From positions 741,093-805,092 of the forward strand of contig JAUHVY010000001.1 of assembly GCA_030424975.1 (NCBI GenBank): 64,000 bases of DNA, written 5' to 3'. The notes below the pieces were generated by a model, which saw only the letters and a program-made list of their open reading frames with translations, had not been told where the DNA came from and did no database searches. Both the position numbers and the translations under genes were made by a program. Positions 16,343-22,975 of the stretch are shown here, one piece after another. Numbering within the stretch: the first letter of the stretch is position 1; each line of letters opens with the position of its first letter. Source of the stretch: Alphaproteobacteria bacterium. Its GTDB lineage: Bacteria > Pseudomonadota > Alphaproteobacteria > Micavibrionales > Micavibrionaceae.

Positions 16343-16825
16343 TTAATTCTTACACACGGGTTGAGAAACAGGGTATTGCGGATAGGGTGTGGCCGCCCAT
16401 TTACGAATATCTTCCTGATTCATCTTACTGGCTTGTTCGATGCGTGATGCATATGTACGGCAAAAAATATCCGGGCGCATCGTTGCAACATCATTAGAGA
16501 TTTTATTCGCAAAATTCGTACGCAATGTGTGCATAGCCTTTTCAGGCTTTGCTGTACCGTTTTTTTGCATATAGGTAAGGATAATATCTTCATACTTGGC
16601 GAAAAGCGCCTCATGCTTTTTTGTGAATTTTTTAAATTCCACATACAGATTGTTACCGTTCGCATCGGCCATATGCGCGCAATTCAAACCAATAACCATC
16701 AATTCGCTGTGAATTCTGATCCCCTGCTCTGCTTCTGCTTCTCTTTTGTCGTAACAGGCTTTTGCCCAAACTGTAGACGGTAAAAAACACACCGCGAGGA
16801 ACGTAAAATATACCCAAGTTTTCAT
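16343..16825 (-). CDS. Small secreted protein of unknown function
   Basis: A 160-aa protein with a clear signal peptide (1-21, VWA/K). The mature part is mostly helical and charged, with four cysteines (in 'AKACYDK', 'GLNCAHM', 'IFCRTY' and 'PVCKN'), enough for two disulfides in the periplasm. No domain is recognised. It lies 27 nt before the 2-hydroxyacid dehydrogenase stop, on the same strand and downstream of it, and could be in its transcript. The ribosome site is weak ('aaagggttatgaATG'). Real by signal peptide and composition; role unknown. Confidence 0.7.
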   Translation of the reverse strand: MKTWVYFTFLAVCFLPSTVWAKACYDKREAEAEQGIRIHSELMVIGLNCAHMADANGNNLYVEFKKFTKKHEALFAKYEDIILTYMQKNGTAKPEKAMHTLRTNFANKISNDVATMRPDIFCRTYASRIEQASKMNQEDIRKWAATPYPQYPVSQPVCKN

Positions 16826-16852: not shown

Positions 16853-17800
16853 TTAACTCGCGAGCTTAACAGGAGTCAATAATGGTTTGCCCTCGAAATA
16901 CGCTGATAAATTATCAATCACAAGCATTCCCATTTTCGAACGTGTTTCATGCGTAGCTGAGCCGACATGCGGCGATAAAACCACATTATCCATCTTCAGC
17001 ATAGCGTCAGGAACGAATGGCTCGTTTGCAAAAACGTCAAGCCCCGCCCCTGCGATGGTTTTATTCGTGAGCGCCAATAGTAAATCATCCTCATCTACGA
17101 CAGATCCGCGAGCGATGTTAATTAAAAATCCGCGCGATCCCAATGCCTCAAGAATTTTATAATCAATCATCTTTTCCGTTTCAGGGCCACCTGCACAAGC
17201 CAAAATAAGAAAATCCGCTTCTCGTGCCATTTCCTCTAAATCATCATAGTAAACATAGGGCACATCCTTCTCACTTCGAGAGTGATATATAATTTGTGTA
17301 TTAAACGCTTCTGCGCGTTGTGCTATGGCCTGGCCAATCTGGCCAAGCCCAACAATTCCTACTGTTTTGCCCGAAATAGACGTTGATAACGGCAACGGTC
17401 CCGAACTCCAACGCCCGACGCGCACAAAAACATCGCCCTCTACGCCGCGGCGCGCAACATTGAGCATCAAGAACATCGCAACGTCAGCGGTGTCATCCGT
17501 TAAGACATCAGGCGTATTCGTAACCGCGATGTTACGTTTCTTGGCCGCCGCAAGATCAATGTTGTCATACCCGACACCGAATTGAGCAATAATCTCGAGA
17601 TTTGGTAAGGCATCCATCAGGCGATCACTGACGCCGCCACTGTTATAGGTCGATAAAACGGCCTGTACATCATTGGCGTAATCCCTAATCGTTTTATCCG
17701 GATCATTGCTTTCCCAAAGGCGCACAACCTTATAATCACACTCCAGTTTTACCATTTCATCAGGCAGCAAGGATTGGAGCGCAAGAATTGTTCTTTTCAT
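16853..17800 (-). CDS. D-isomer-specific 2-hydroxyacid dehydrogenase (glyoxylate/hydroxypyruvate reductase-like)
   Basis: A 315-aa NAD(P)-dependent dehydrogenase from ATG 17800 (AGGT upstream; the track start adds 7 residues). The Rossmann motif is 'GIVGLGQIGQA', and the catalytic triad Arg/Glu/His sits in 'NIARGSVVDE', 'DVFANEPFVP' and 'LSPHVGSAT'. The family reduces glyoxylate, hydroxypyruvate or other 2-keto acids. The cofactor loop after the Rossmann beta2 strand, 'IIYHSRSEK', contains Ser-Arg, which favours NADPH. Divergent from miaB. Substrate is assigned at family level only. Confidence 0.88.
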   Translation of the reverse strand: MKRTILALQSLLPDEMVKLECDYKVVRLWESNDPDKTIRDYANDVQAVLSTYNSGGVSDRLMDALPNLEIIAQFGVGYDNIDLAAAKKRNIAVTNTPDVLTDDTADVAMFLMLNVARRGVEGDVFVRVGRWSSGPLPLSTSISGKTVGIVGLGQIGQAIAQRAEAFNTQIIYHSRSEKDVPYVYYDDLEEMAREADFLILACAGGPETEKMIDYKILEALGSRGFLINIARGSVVDEDDLLLALTNKTIAGAGLDVFANEPFVPDAMLKMDNVVLSPHVGSATHETRSKMGMLVIDNLSAYFEGKPLLTPVKLAS

Positions 17801-17914
17801 AAATTTTACCTGCATTAGCATCGGTGGATATAAAAATCTTGATTTTCAGGCATTTTTTGTGGTTTAAGACACAGTTGAAAACCAAGAAAATATAGACATA
17901 GAGTGTAATCCAAA

Positions 17915-19276
17915 ATGACACAGACACACAAGAAACTCTTCGTAAAGACATGGGGCTGTCAGATGAACGTATATGACAGTAACCGTATGGTAGATATCCT
18001 TTCATCCCTTGGATACAAACCTGTGGATACCCCTGAAGACGCCGATATGATGATTTTAAACACATGTCATATTCGTGAAAAAGCTACGGATAAAGTTTTT
18101 TCTGAGCTTGGTCGTTTGCGCCCGCACAAAGAGGCAAAAGAAGAAAAAGGCGAAAAGATGTTAATCGCCGTTGCAGGCTGTGTCGCGCAAGCTGAAGGTG
18201 ATTTCATTCTTGAACGTGCGCCATATGTCGATATGGTTTTTGGCCCACAAACATACCACGAATTACCCGAAATGGTTTTAAAAGCCAGCGGCGCAGAACG
18301 TATTGTAAACACCGAATTCCCGACTGTATCGAAATTCGATCACTTGCCCGAACAGCACACAATCGAAGGCGCAAGTGCATATCTATCAATCCAAGAAGGC
18401 TGCGATAAATTTTGTACATTCTGTGTTGTGCCATATACACGCGGGTCAGAATATTCGCGTCCCGCGCAAGAAATTATTGATGAAGCACACCGCCTGCGTG
18501 ATCAGGGGGCGTTGGAAATTATCTTACTCGGTCAGAACGTAAATGCATATCACGGTATTGGCCCTGATGGCACGACATGGGGCTTGGCTGATCTCATCCG
18601 TAAAGTTGCCGACATAGAAGGCATAGAGCGCATTCGATACTCCACATCGCATCCGCGTGATATGGATGATGACCTAATTTTTGCACATGGCGAAATTTTG
18701 AAATTAATGCCGTTCCTCCACTTACCTGTCCAAAGTGGATCTGACCGTATTTTAGAAGCTATGAACCGCAAACATAAGGCTGATTTATATCGTGATGTTA
18801 TTGAACGCCTACGCAAAGCGCGTCCAGATATTGCGTTTTCTTCTGATTTCATTATCGGTTTCCCTGGTGAAACAGAGCAAGATTTTGAAGACACAATGCA
18901 ATTGGCGCGCGATGTTAAATATGCATCATGCTATTCATTCAAATATAGTGCACGCCCGGGAACACCTGCGGCAAACTTACAGGCAGCGCTTGTTCCTGAT
19001 CATATCGCCTCAGAGCGTTTGAGCCGTTTTCAAGCTTTGATCAACGAACAACAAGCGGAATTCAACAAGACCTGCGAAGGCCTTGTAATGCCTGTTTTGT
19101 TTGATCGTAAAGGTAAGAAAGACGGACAACTTAGTGGTCGTAGCCCTTTCTTCCAATCGGTATATGTACAAGGGAATGAGCGTCTGATCGGCAACATCAT
19201 TGACGTTAAGATCACGAGTGCTTTTGATAATTCCTTGACAGGAGACATCGTAATTTACGATGATGAAGCCGCATAA
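17915..19276 (+). CDS. miaB: tRNA-2-methylthio-N6-dimethylallyladenosine synthase MiaB
   Basis: A 453-aa radical-SAM methylthiotransferase that adds the 2-methylthio group to i6A37 of tRNAs reading UNN codons. It carries two Fe-S clusters: the UPF0004 domain cysteines C15 ('WGCQMN'), C51 ('NTCHIRE') and C89 ('AGCVAQ'), and the radical-SAM triad C163/C167/C170 ('CDKFCTFC'). A TRAM domain forms the C-terminus. 'HLPVQSGSD' and 'FSSDFIIGFPGE' are family hallmarks. It leads into the conserved alphaproteobacterial miaB-phoH-ybeY order, here interrupted by two RNase H-fold genes. Confidence 0.97.
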   Translation: MTQTHKKLFVKTWGCQMNVYDSNRMVDILSSLGYKPVDTPEDADMMILNTCHIREKATDKVFSELGRLRPHKEAKEEKGEKMLIAVAGCVAQAEGDFILERAPYVDMVFGPQTYHELPEMVLKASGAERIVNTEFPTVSKFDHLPEQHTIEGASAYLSIQEGCDKFCTFCVVPYTRGSEYSRPAQEIIDEAHRLRDQGALEIILLGQNVNAYHGIGPDGTTWGLADLIRKVADIEGIERIRYSTSHPRDMDDDLIFAHGEILKLMPFLHLPVQSGSDRILEAMNRKHKADLYRDVIERLRKARPDIAFSSDFIIGFPGETEQDFEDTMQLARDVKYASCYSFKYSARPGTPAANLQAALVPDHIASERLSRFQALINEQQAEFNKTCEGLVMPVLFDRKGKKDGQLSGRSPFFQSVYVQGNERLIGNIIDVKITSAFDNSLTGDIVIYDDEAA

Positions 19277-19310
19277 TATTGTATGCGGATAATAAAACAG
19301 GGTTAACATT

Positions 19311-19835
19311 ATGGGTGAAGATAATCGCCGCCATCTTTATGTAGACGGTAGCGCAGATATTTCCAATTCCCGCTTTGCTGTAGGCTGGGTTAAAACGGAC
19401 AGTCGCGATAATGTTATTGACCAGCAAGGGTTTCGCCTTGATATTTCAAAGGGTTGCTCGACTGTAGCCGAGGTTTATGCCGCGCGTGAAGCCCTTGAAA
19501 GTATCGCAGAAAGCCAAGCTGTCGTTCTACATAGTGATTCCGTTTGCGTTTGCGACGCCATAACCAATAACAAACTTTACGATAAAATTAGAAGATCAGC
19601 TAATAATCGTGCACTTCAAGCGGCTTGGGAAACATTATCCGAAACATTAGAAAGACATACAGATGTCGAGGCTATTCACACGCAAGAAGATGAAAACAAG
19701 CATATGGCAACAGCGCACAGCCTTGCAAATACAGCTGCACGACACAACGAAGATGATATGAGTGATAATTTTCAAAAATTCTGGGATGAAAATGAGCTGA
19801 TCGAAGATTATAGCGACAGTGAATTAAATTTTTAA
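19311..19835 (+). CDS. RNase H-fold protein with a partly degraded active site (paralogue A)
   Basis: A 174-aa protein whose first 145 residues follow RNase HI by eye: strand beta1 'HLYVDGSADIS' with D12 (E. coli D10), helix 'STVAEVYAAREALESI' with E54 (E48), strand beta4 'VVLHSDSVCVCDAI' with D76 (D70), and the last helix 'MATAHSLANTAARH', where the fourth acid (D134) is replaced by Ala/His. Three of four DEDD residues remain, so weak activity or nucleic-acid binding is possible. An acidic tail ends 'DSELNF'. It starts 34 nt after miaB and 12 nt before a paralogue. Fold assignment is my own alignment and needs a structure-based check. Confidence 0.65.
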   Translation: MGEDNRRHLYVDGSADISNSRFAVGWVKTDSRDNVIDQQGFRLDISKGCSTVAEVYAAREALESIAESQAVVLHSDSVCVCDAITNNKLYDKIRRSANNRALQAAWETLSETLERHTDVEAIHTQEDENKHMATAHSLANTAARHNEDDMSDNFQKFWDENELIEDYSDSELNF

Positions 19836-19847
19836 ACGGGGGGATAT

Positions 19848-20417
19848 ATGTCCAGTAAAAAAGATCAAAACGTATATATAGCAAGTGCAATTGATGCAGA
19901 TCATGAACATCGTGTTGGTTATGCGTGGGTAAAAACAAATGGTAAGGGCAAGCAAGCAGGAAGCTCTCAACCTATGCGTCTTTCCACTCAAGAAGCATCA
20001 ACCAGTTTAGCGGATGTTTATGCAGCCAGTGATGCCCTTAACCACCTATCGGCAGGCTCAACAGTTAAAATTTACACAGATAATGAAATGCTTGCGAATA
20101 CCCTAAATCGTCCTGCTGATAACGTGACGAAAAAAGCACGTTCACATAAAAAACACATACGAAAAGCTTGGACAGCTCTACAGGATGCCGTTGATCGTCA
20201 TGAATACGTTAGTGCGGAAGTAACAAACGCAGAAGACCCGCCTAAAGAAATGGCCACCGCCAAAGACATAGCACAGGCCGGTGCTACACAAGCTTTCGCC
20301 AAAGGCGGTACGGAAAAAAGACGCATGGAGCCAAATCCGGGCGATAAACATAAAAACCTTTCGTTCATTAACGAAGAGATCGCCTATATGGAGGATGATC
20401 AAGGGCTAAACCTTTAG
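19848..20417 (+). CDS. RNase H-fold protein, probably inactive (paralogue B)
   Basis: A 189-aa paralogue of the preceding gene. It shares the beta1-beta2 pattern ('VYIASAIDADHEHRVGYAWVKT' against 'LYVDGSADISNSRFAVGWVKT'), 'LADVYAASDAL', 'KIYTDNEMLANTL' and 'EMATAKDIAQAGA'. The catalytic positions read Ala (for D10), D56 (for E48) and D78 (for D70), so the two-metal site is broken. An added basic stretch and an acidic tail ending 'DQGLNL' echo paralogue A's ELNF. It likely has a binding or structural role, perhaps with A as a heterodimer (inference). It lies 80 nt before phoH. Confidence 0.6.
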   Translation: MSSKKDQNVYIASAIDADHEHRVGYAWVKTNGKGKQAGSSQPMRLSTQEASTSLADVYAASDALNHLSAGSTVKIYTDNEMLANTLNRPADNVTKKARSHKKHIRKAWTALQDAVDRHEYVSAEVTNAEDPPKEMATAKDIAQAGATQAFAKGGTEKRRMEPNPGDKHKNLSFINEEIAYMEDDQGLNL

Positions 20418-20497
20418 GTCTAAAAATATAGTTTTTTCAGACGGATTAGTGTAGAATTAGATTATAAGTATAGCGCACTGATCCGAAAGGTTTTTTA

Positions 20498-21475
20498 TTG
20501 TCAAAAGAGCTTATATTAGAATTCGCAGATAACGACATCGTACCGTTGTTGTTTGGTGAATATAACGATCATCTTTCCTATCTCGAAAAAAAGTTAAAAG
20601 TTAACATTTCCGATCGCGGGAATCTTTTACGTGTGAGCGGTAGCAAAGAATCAAAAGAAAAAATAAAAGTTATTTTACAATCCCTTTATACGAGATTGCG
20701 AAGCAAGGAGCTATTAAACGTGACCCATGCAGATATAGATGCCGAACTCCGTTTTATAAATTCAGGCAAACACGATAAAGGCAAGCCTAATCAGGCTGAA
20801 AAAGAAACCGACAGTAAAAGCGCGCTAATTAAGACAAAAAACAAAACGATCGCGCCTCGTTCACCCAACCAAAAACGTTATATTGAACTTATTAAACAAC
20901 GCGACATGGTCTTTGGTCTTGGCCCCGCCGGTACCGGTAAAACATATCTGGCCGTAGCAGCCGGTATTGATATGTATTTGAAAGGCGAAGTAGAACGCTT
21001 AATTTTTTGTCGCCCTGCCGTTGAGGCGGGTGAGAACCTCGGCTTTCTGCCCGGTGATATGAAGGAAAAAATAGACCCGTATTTACGGCCTATTTATGAT
21101 GCCTTGCATGATATGTTGCCATGGGATTTCTTGATGAAAAAAATGGAAATCGGAGAGATTGAGATCGCCCCACTCGCGTTTATGCGCGGCCGGACACTGG
21201 CGCATGCCTTCGTCATTTTGGATGAGGCGCAAAACGCAACATGTGCCCAAATGAAAATGTTCTTAACACGTATGGGCGAATCCTCGCATATGGTTATAAC
21301 AGGTGATGCCAGCCAGACAGATTTACCGCCCCACATCCGTTCAGGGCTTGATGAAGCACTTGAGCTTTTAGGTGGGATTGAGGATATCGGTTTTATTACC
21401 TTCGAAGGTGAAGATGTTATCCGCCATGGTTTAGTACGTAAAATCATTCATGCGTATGAAGTGAAGAAAAAATAA
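20498..21475 (+). CDS. PhoH-family ATPase
   Basis: A 325-aa PhoH/PhoL-type P-loop ATPase: Walker A GPAGTGKT (142-149), Walker B 'FVILDEAQN', and 'GDASQTDLPPHIRSGL'. Its N-terminal 70 residues form a KH-like region seen in PhoL. The family is tied to RNA metabolism and is nearly always followed by ybeY, as here (9 nt). The start is TTG at 20498 with AAAGG upstream; I see no better ATG. Walker motifs and length are normal. It begins the tight phoH-ybeY-corC-lnt run. Confidence 0.93.
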   Translation: MSKELILEFADNDIVPLLFGEYNDHLSYLEKKLKVNISDRGNLLRVSGSKESKEKIKVILQSLYTRLRSKELLNVTHADIDAELRFINSGKHDKGKPNQAEKETDSKSALIKTKNKTIAPRSPNQKRYIELIKQRDMVFGLGPAGTGKTYLAVAAGIDMYLKGEVERLIFCRPAVEAGENLGFLPGDMKEKIDPYLRPIYDALHDMLPWDFLMKKMEIGEIEIAPLAFMRGRTLAHAFVILDEAQNATCAQMKMFLTRMGESSHMVITGDASQTDLPPHIRSGLDEALELLGGIEDIGFITFEGEDVIRHGLVRKIIHAYEVKKK

Positions 21476-21484
21476 TACAGAGCC

Positions 21485-21976
21485 ATGCCAGTATTTGAAA
21501 TTGACATCACAATTGAAGATGAAAGATGGAGTGACCATTTACAGGATATCTCTCTCCTTACCGAAAAAATAATCACGCACGTCCTTTCTGAACTTATTAA
21601 AGATACTGACATTATCGAAGTTAGTATCGTTCTTGCGAATGACGAATTCATCCAAGAGCTAAACCGTGATTATCGACAAAAAGATAAACCAACCAATGTC
21701 TTATCATTCCCCATCACTGATGCTGCAGATGGAATAGATGCGGGCGGCCCGTTCGTTTCATTGGGTGATATTATTATTTCATTAGACACAATTGCGGCCG
21801 AATCTGCGCAACAAAAGAAGGATATTCATGACCATTACGTACATATGTTAGTGCACGGATGCCTGCATTTATTACATTATGATCATATTGATGATGAAGA
21901 AGCAGAAGAAATGGAAAAGTTGGAAGTTCACTTTTTAAGTGCATTTCATATAAAAAACCCTTATGAAGTCTGCTAA
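21485..21976 (+). CDS. ybeY: Endoribonuclease YbeY
   Basis: A 163-aa zinc-dependent single-strand endoribonuclease involved in 16S rRNA 3'-end maturation and ribosome quality control. The metal motif H124-G-x-L-H128-x5-H134 ('HGCLHLLHYDH') has all three His; the usual Gly before YDH is a His. The conserved Arg lies in 'LNRDYRQKDKPTNVLSFP'. It sits 9 nt after phoH and 27 nt before the corC-like gene. Confidence 0.96.
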   Translation: MPVFEIDITIEDERWSDHLQDISLLTEKIITHVLSELIKDTDIIEVSIVLANDEFIQELNRDYRQKDKPTNVLSFPITDAADGIDAGGPFVSLGDIIISLDTIAAESAQQKKDIHDHYVHMLVHGCLHLLHYDHIDDEEAEEMEKLEVHFLSAFHIKNPYEVC

Positions 21977-22003
21977 ATTTATGGCACAATATTTGGTAAG
22001 AAC

Positions 22004-22975
22004 ATGCTTAAAATGAATGATAAAGTAGAAGAAATAGAAGAACCTCCGAGTACGATCGCATCACCGATTGTAAATGGTGGTGTAGATAATAATACCAGCG
22101 GCAATTCTGACGCTGATAACGGCCCGGGTCTTATTGATCGCGTCGTGTCCCTTTTCAAAAACAAACCTGATTCTACGCTTCGTGAAACATTAGAAGAATT
22201 CATCGAAGATAGTGCCAATGGTGATGAGGGCGAAACATCTATTTCTTCACATGAAAAAACCCTGATTTCCAACATCCTGAAACTGCGGGATTTGTGCGCA
22301 GCAGATGTTATGATTCCTCGCGCTGATATCGTCGCTTTGCCTGATACGGCAACACAGGAAGACATTTTCGCATTACTTGCGGAAACACAATATAGCCGCC
22401 TCCCGATATATCATGACACACTTGATAACGTCGTTGGCTGTATTCATGTCAAAGATATACTTGCGACCTTAGCGCGCGGACAATCACTTGTAACCAAAGA
22501 CCTTGCACGTGAAGTTCCGATTGTGTCGCCGTCTATTCCGGTTCTTGATTTGCTTTTGCAAATGCGTATGAGCCGTAAACACATGGTTTTGGTTGTCGAT
22601 GAATTTGGCGGTATTGACGGTTTGGTTACCATAGGTGATTTGATCGAGGACATTGTCGGGCAGATTGATGATGAACATGATCCCGAATATCATCCAGAAA
22701 TAAGCGTGCAAACTGACGGAACTGTTGTTGCGGATGCGCGTGTAAACCTAGAAGAGTTTGAAGATCAATTCGGAAAAATGCTAAGCGATGAAGAACGGGA
22801 TGAAAACGACACACTTGGTGGTCTGGTTTTCTTTATTGCAGGGCGCGTGCCTGTGCGTGGTGAAATATTACATCACCATTCAGGAATGCGTTTTGAAGTT
22901 ATTGATGCCAGTGCACGCCGTGTTAACCGATTATGCATTCGTGATTTACCGCAAATTCAAATTGAAGAACACTAA
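22004..22975 (+). CDS. CorC/HlyC-type CBS transporter-associated protein
   Basis: A 323-aa cytoplasmic protein: acidic N-terminus, a CBS pair (about 105-225; 'DVMIPRADIVALP' and 'VVDEFGGIDGLVTIGDLIEDIVG'), and a C-terminal CorC_HlyC domain (about 240-320). Family members were linked to Mg/Co efflux (CorC) and to hemolysins, but no membrane domain is present, so it is probably a regulatory partner. Its place between ybeY and lnt is the standard order. Confidence 0.92.
   Translation: MLKMNDKVEEIEEPPSTIASPIVNGGVDNNTSGNSDADNGPGLIDRVVSLFKNKPDSTLRETLEEFIEDSANGDEGETSISSHEKTLISNILKLRDLCAADVMIPRADIVALPDTATQEDIFALLAETQYSRLPIYHDTLDNVVGCIHVKDILATLARGQSLVTKDLAREVPIVSPSIPVLDLLLQMRMSRKHMVLVVDEFGGIDGLVTIGDLIEDIVGQIDDEHDPEYHPEISVQTDGTVVADARVNLEEFEDQFGKMLSDEERDENDTLGGLVFFIAGRVPVRGEILHHHSGMRFEVIDASARRVNRLCIRDLPQIQIEEH

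Follow-up and report, generated by a model that had tools for sequence, protein, structure and literature searches.

A tandem pair of RNase H-fold genes in a variable miaB-phoH slot of Micavibrionaceae, one with a DEDH site and one with the site lost

Two adjacent open reading frames, A and B, lie between miaB and phoH in the 64,000-nucleotide stretch of Micavibrionaceae DNA that we analysed (the window). Their location raises the question of what proteins they encode, whether either could be an active nuclease, and whether their position ties them to the genes on both sides. The genes concerned are listed below; we take the names miaB, phoH (ybeZ) and ybeY from sequence and operon order on the basis of general knowledge.

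17915-19276, + strand: miaB, the upstream flank of the slot, kept in relatives (tblastn)
19311-19835, + strand: gene A, 174 aa, an RNase H-fold protein (PF00075, AlphaFold2 and Foldseek) with a DEDH site and a low-confidence acidic tail ending ELNF
19848-20417, + strand: gene B, 189 aa, an RNase H-fold paralogue with an A-D-D-K site, a basic segment at residues 82-106 and a low-confidence tail ending GLNL
20498-21475, + strand: phoH (ybeZ), the downstream flank of the slot, with a TTG start
21485-21976, + strand: ybeY, the gene after phoH; the tight phoH-ybeY gap served as a control for slot variability

The genes are closely spaced, with 34 bp between miaB and A, 12 bp between A and B and 80 bp between B and phoH. 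Given these short gaps and the absence of any terminator-like site on the + strand from the end of miaB to phoH, A and B are probably co-transcribed with the operon. A search of Rfam over positions 17500-22500 matched no RNA element. A canonical RnhA is encoded elsewhere in the genome (173.5 bits against PF00075), and A and B are consequently extra genes rather than the housekeeping RNase HI.

The two proteins are 28% identical across 127 aa (E=3e-15), confirming the proposal of the first-pass annotation that they are paralogues. In the Pfam family RNase_H (PF00075, cut-off 25.8 bits) A scored above the cut-off with 30.5 bits and B below it with 18.5 bits; B was assigned to the RNase H fold through its homology to A. 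Searching PDB by sequence alone gave no match for either protein. AlphaFold2 models, built on shallow alignments of six sequences, had a mean pLDDT of 79 for A and 69 for B, and in both the strands and helices followed the order typical of RNase H. The best PDB matches found by Foldseek were RNases H1 in each case, 4e19 for A (E=6.5e-10) and 3h08 for B (E=2e-9). By strand and helix order and by these matches, both proteins have the RNase H core of five strands with flanking helices, as first proposed, and no different fold emerged. The tails (residues 148-174 of A and 150-189 of B) were modelled with low confidence. They had been described as acidic and ending in LN(F/L); both endings are present and the tail of A is strongly acidic (net -9), but that of B is only weakly so (net -2 overall). 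An acidic tail ending in F or L at the level of A was found in one of the 67 open reading frames of the window, A itself. As a guess, this acidic C-terminus ending in Phe may mimic the tail of SSB.

Alignment with E. coli RNase HI placed the catalytic positions of the two proteins as follows.

19344-19346, + strand: A Asp12, at the position of E. coli D10
19470-19472, + strand: A Glu54, at the position of E. coli E48
19536-19538, + strand: A Asp76, at the position of E. coli D70
19716-19718, + strand: A His136, at the position of E. coli D134; His is common to ten relatives
19881-19883, + strand: B Ala12, which replaces the first catalytic Asp
20013-20015, + strand: B Asp56, which replaces the catalytic Glu
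20079-20081, + strand: B Asp78, at the position of E. coli D70, the sole catalytic residue kept in B
20262-20264, + strand: B Lys139, at the fourth catalytic position

A thus keeps three of the four acids, and the residues of B are those given in the first-pass annotation, with Lys139 at the D134 position. The accompanying description of the two sites as progressively broken holds for B, whose site is lost, but not for A. The combination of D-E-D with a His in the C-terminal helix occurs in A and in ten relatives (G094, G078, G035a, G035b, G043, G082, G088, G062, G061 and G117), while B has Lys and the family member in G019 has Thr at the fourth position. According to a superfamily-wide survey of RNase H-like proteins, the position in the C-terminal helix can be D, E or H, and active-site residues that lie in helices seem to matter less than those in strands (PMC3985635). 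Since His is common to ten relatives and D, E and H are all accepted in the superfamily, A may well be active as a nuclease, and DEDH would be the site of the whole family rather than a partly broken form of another. In E. coli RNase HI both metals are coordinated by Asp10 (PMC8900815). Because B has no equivalent of this essential first Asp, it is very probably a pseudoenzyme.

We favour the reading that A and B are a tandem, Micavibrionales-specific accessory pair in a variable slot, in which A is a DEDH nuclease and B a dead protein kept for binding or as a partner, and give it a probability of about 0.45. The pair would belong to a fast-evolving RNase H-fold family and would occupy an accessory slot of the miaB-phoH-ybeY-ybeX operon as an optional add-on, outside the conserved RNA-processing machinery. 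A would cleave RNA:DNA hybrids or structured RNA as a metal-dependent nuclease, its metals held by D12, E54 and D76, with H136 in place of E. coli D134. B would not cleave and would be retained as a nucleic-acid-binding or partner protein by way of its basic segment. This segment, which follows the fourth strand, carries a net charge of +7 (residues 82-106) versus +3 in A (residues 80-104), a difference that is compatible with nucleic-acid binding and does not prove it. Counting against our reading are the acidic folded core of A (net -8, pI 5.3), the absence of the His124 loop of RNase HI from A and its relatives in the alignment, and the six-sequence alignments behind the models. Among the ten relatives tested, seven have a core charge of net +3 to +7 and three are acidic like A. 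The pair represents a variation, specific to this lineage, on a familiar enzyme fold and does not constitute a new type of system.

The family has a restricted spread. Firm matches in the family search (alignment A1, E<1e-6) came from G000 (two), G035 (two), G088, G082, G094, G019, G078, G117, G062 and G061 and are confined to Micavibrionales (Alphaproteobacteria); the named ones comprise Micavibrio MAGs plus a single unclassified alphaproteobacterial MAG. The relative in G043 was picked up in a single-sequence search with A, and an order-wide search added further divergent relatives, for instance in G126 and G052. When 385 genomes sampled from the class were searched, the one match outside the order (L100) read as RnhA. 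A weak tier of matches (about 1e-4 to 1e-8, in many genomes) was left uncounted where it had no other support; this tier was inspected in part, and the frames read, L089 and L100, are canonical RnhA. Using A as a single-sequence query, 0 of 11 congeners matched, and scanning genome contigs with A alone gave no match. An A2 profile matched four congeners at E values of 2e-8 to 4e-7, in frames of 145-152 aa, the length of RnhA, which were left out of the counts. An origin from phages, plasmids or viruses was dismissed, as A had no tblastn match in phages or plasmids, and neither A nor alignment A3 matched viral contigs in pattern scans that reach only close relatives. An anti-phage defence protein was likewise dismissed because no PADLOC family matched at E<=1.

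Members of the family also occur at other loci. A second tandem pair lies away from miaB in G035 (L005:974-1929), and both of its members have an intact DEDH site. In G082 (L044:1495-2075) a member is located across miaB on the opposite strand, where it adjoins a homologue of the window protein encoded at 16343-16825. In two genomes of one genus (L049 and L050) a long-tailed member has enolase on one side and, on the other, a short ftsB-like gene with a pyruvate dehydrogenase-like gene after it.

Neither a full-length nor a close orthologue of B was found among these relatives. The only resemblance to B came from another genus: in G022 the slot encodes a 736-aa protein, and its N-terminal domain is B-like. 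B pairs with this domain in a tree (99/92) on a very long branch, and the match covers 60 residues (E=3e-4); we regard the kinship as a lead only. The absence or frameshifting of B in all relatives, which the first-pass annotation had said would tell against its proposal, is therefore nearly the case, with the G022 domain as an exception on limited evidence.

We also examined how constant the interval between miaB and phoH is. Among 82 resolved genomes of Micavibrionaceae, the gap was <260 bp in 49 (empty) and at least 600 bp in 33 (with an insert), an occupancy of about 40%; the two classes were set after noting that no gap falls between 260 and 600 bp. The census of the slot counted open reading frames of at least 90 aa on the coding strand at loci L011-L040, L105-L118 and L119-L178 (upstream of phoH), and as the relatives are mostly metagenome assemblies some slots are possibly misassembled. 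A gap of -41 bp in G081 is probably a start-site artefact. At 44 loci the gap between phoH and ybeY had a maximum of 183 bp, with all others at most 82 bp. Consequently, the first junction is open to insertion while its neighbour is closed.

Family RNase H-like genes were found in the slot in G000, G094 and G078, and an RNase H-like N-terminal domain in G022. The interval survey that had been suggested, run here in Micavibrionaceae, finds family members in other genomes, but 49 of the 82 slots hold nothing. Other occupants are an extra PhoH-like ATPase directly 5' of the standard phoH in six genomes (G122, G083, G033, G036, G079 and G076), related small membrane proteins in G100, G106 and G097, and RTX-like repeats in G016 and others, with many further occupants being singletons. 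With an insert in 33 of 82 slots and inserts of many unrelated kinds, a role deduced from placement in a very conserved block, as had been argued, is weak. The extra PhoH-like ATPases are located at L160, L172, L176, L021, L166 and L131, and one group of genomes has large repeat-rich RTX-like frames within the slot or next to it (L120, L178 and L017). Slot frames of G092 and G075 were considered as degenerate RNases H; they look alike by eye and score no better than shuffles. That of G018 was borderline, with 3 of 1000 shuffles scoring equally high, and none of the three was counted.

The best surviving alternative, which we think unlikely but weigh more heavily than the others, is that A and B are weakly selected cargo of the slot. 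They would have arrived in the ancestor of a single clade of Micavibrionaceae (or by recombination through the conserved flanks), duplicated, decayed and been lost frequently, with B now decaying and having no function tied to the operon. In a MiaB tree a single clade (28 rows, support 100/99) contains every firm in-slot RNase H-like gene, interspersed with 16 empty slots, a pattern that fits either a single entry followed by recurrent loss or transfer by way of the conserved flanks. In this tree the degenerate RNase H labels of G018, G092 and G075 predate the shuffle test, and the "empty" labels predate the rescue of 13 genomes, so that some "unresolved" rows are actually empty. The mixture of unrelated slot occupants also suits cargo, as does the identity of 38% between A and its nearest slot relative (G094), compared with 63% for PhoH of the same genome pair, and the loss of the fourth residue in G019. 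However, despite great divergence the frame of B is still full-length, its product is still predicted to have an RNase H core and its homology to A is clear, which is unexpected for an unconstrained pseudogene. B also has a good ribosome-binding site, judged by eye, and the GC content of A and of B is similar to that of neighbouring genes.

It is improbable, in our view, that neither protein is catalytic and that A, like B, binds only nucleic acid or protein, with His136 having a structural role. The lack of a fourth carboxylate and of the His124 loop in A, its acidic core and the G019 member without the fourth residue would all agree with such a role, but A and ten divergent relatives all retain the D-E-D residues at the first three positions, a conservation difficult to account for unless metals are bound.

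Less probable again is that A and B pair as the active and the inactive subunit of a heterodimer that joins PhoH (YbeZ) and YbeY in the maturation of rRNA or tRNA. The tandem, likely co-transcribed genes within the operon and the second tandem pair in G035 are in keeping with it, and E. coli YbeY is an endoribonuclease with an implicated part in the maturation of 16S rRNA (PMC5101352). Yet most relatives have an empty slot and others carry unrelated genes there, the pair in G035 is at another locus with DEDH intact in both members, and relatives also occur singly (G094 and G078) and at other loci. Least probable of all is its most specific form, in which a natural DEDH RNase H and a catalytically dead paralogue would have been recruited as a heterodimer to the MiaB/YbeZ/YbeY RNA-processing pathway of Micavibrio-type bacteria.

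Taken as an accessory pair, A and B can be compared with several known proteins. A resembles RNase HI (RnhA; PF00075, NF001236) in predicted fold, in the order of the catalytic positions and in the first three acids, and differs in having DEDH instead of DEDD, in lacking the His124 loop and in its acidic tail. The DEDD tetrad of RnhA is found in neither protein (DEDH in A, ADDK in B), and both score far below the 160-bit cut-off of the RnhA equivalog NF001236 of NCBIfam (22.5 bits for A and 20.8 bits for B). The D134H mutant of E. coli RNase HI (PDB 1kvb) places DEDH in the RNase HI fold and was matched by A in Foldseek (E=2e-7). This is an engineered single mutant, whereas A is natural and about 20-25% identical to solved RNases H1. 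The D134H mutant reportedly keeps activity. An RNase H1 with an altered fourth catalytic residue has reportedly been described, with Asn at that position compared with His in A. Among reverse-transcriptase-like RNase H domains (RVT_3, PF13456), the G035a relative scores above the cut-off (32.2 versus 21.6 bits) while A and B themselves do not match. The pairing of an active enzyme with a dead paralogue is known from trypanosomatid deoxyhypusine synthase (PMC3663545); A looks active and B dead in the same pattern, but that enzyme is unrelated to them.

If A is active, it would represent a natural DEDH family in which the need for the fourth carboxylate of RNase H1, and the use of His as a substitute, can be probed. 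A dead partner B would provide a case of pseudoenzyme evolution within the RNase H fold. The slot, occupied in ~40% of resolved Micavibrionaceae next to a closed junction, offers a natural series for the entry of accessory genes into a conserved operon. If A and B are mere cargo, the finding is an ordinary one. A PhoH-like gene was also seen near an RNase H-like protein of a different kind: on the second contig (G000:C2, L003:60-2127) it lies two genes from a protein with DEDD and a C-terminal extension, relatives of which are found in G092 and G109/G110 (L093, L085 and L083).
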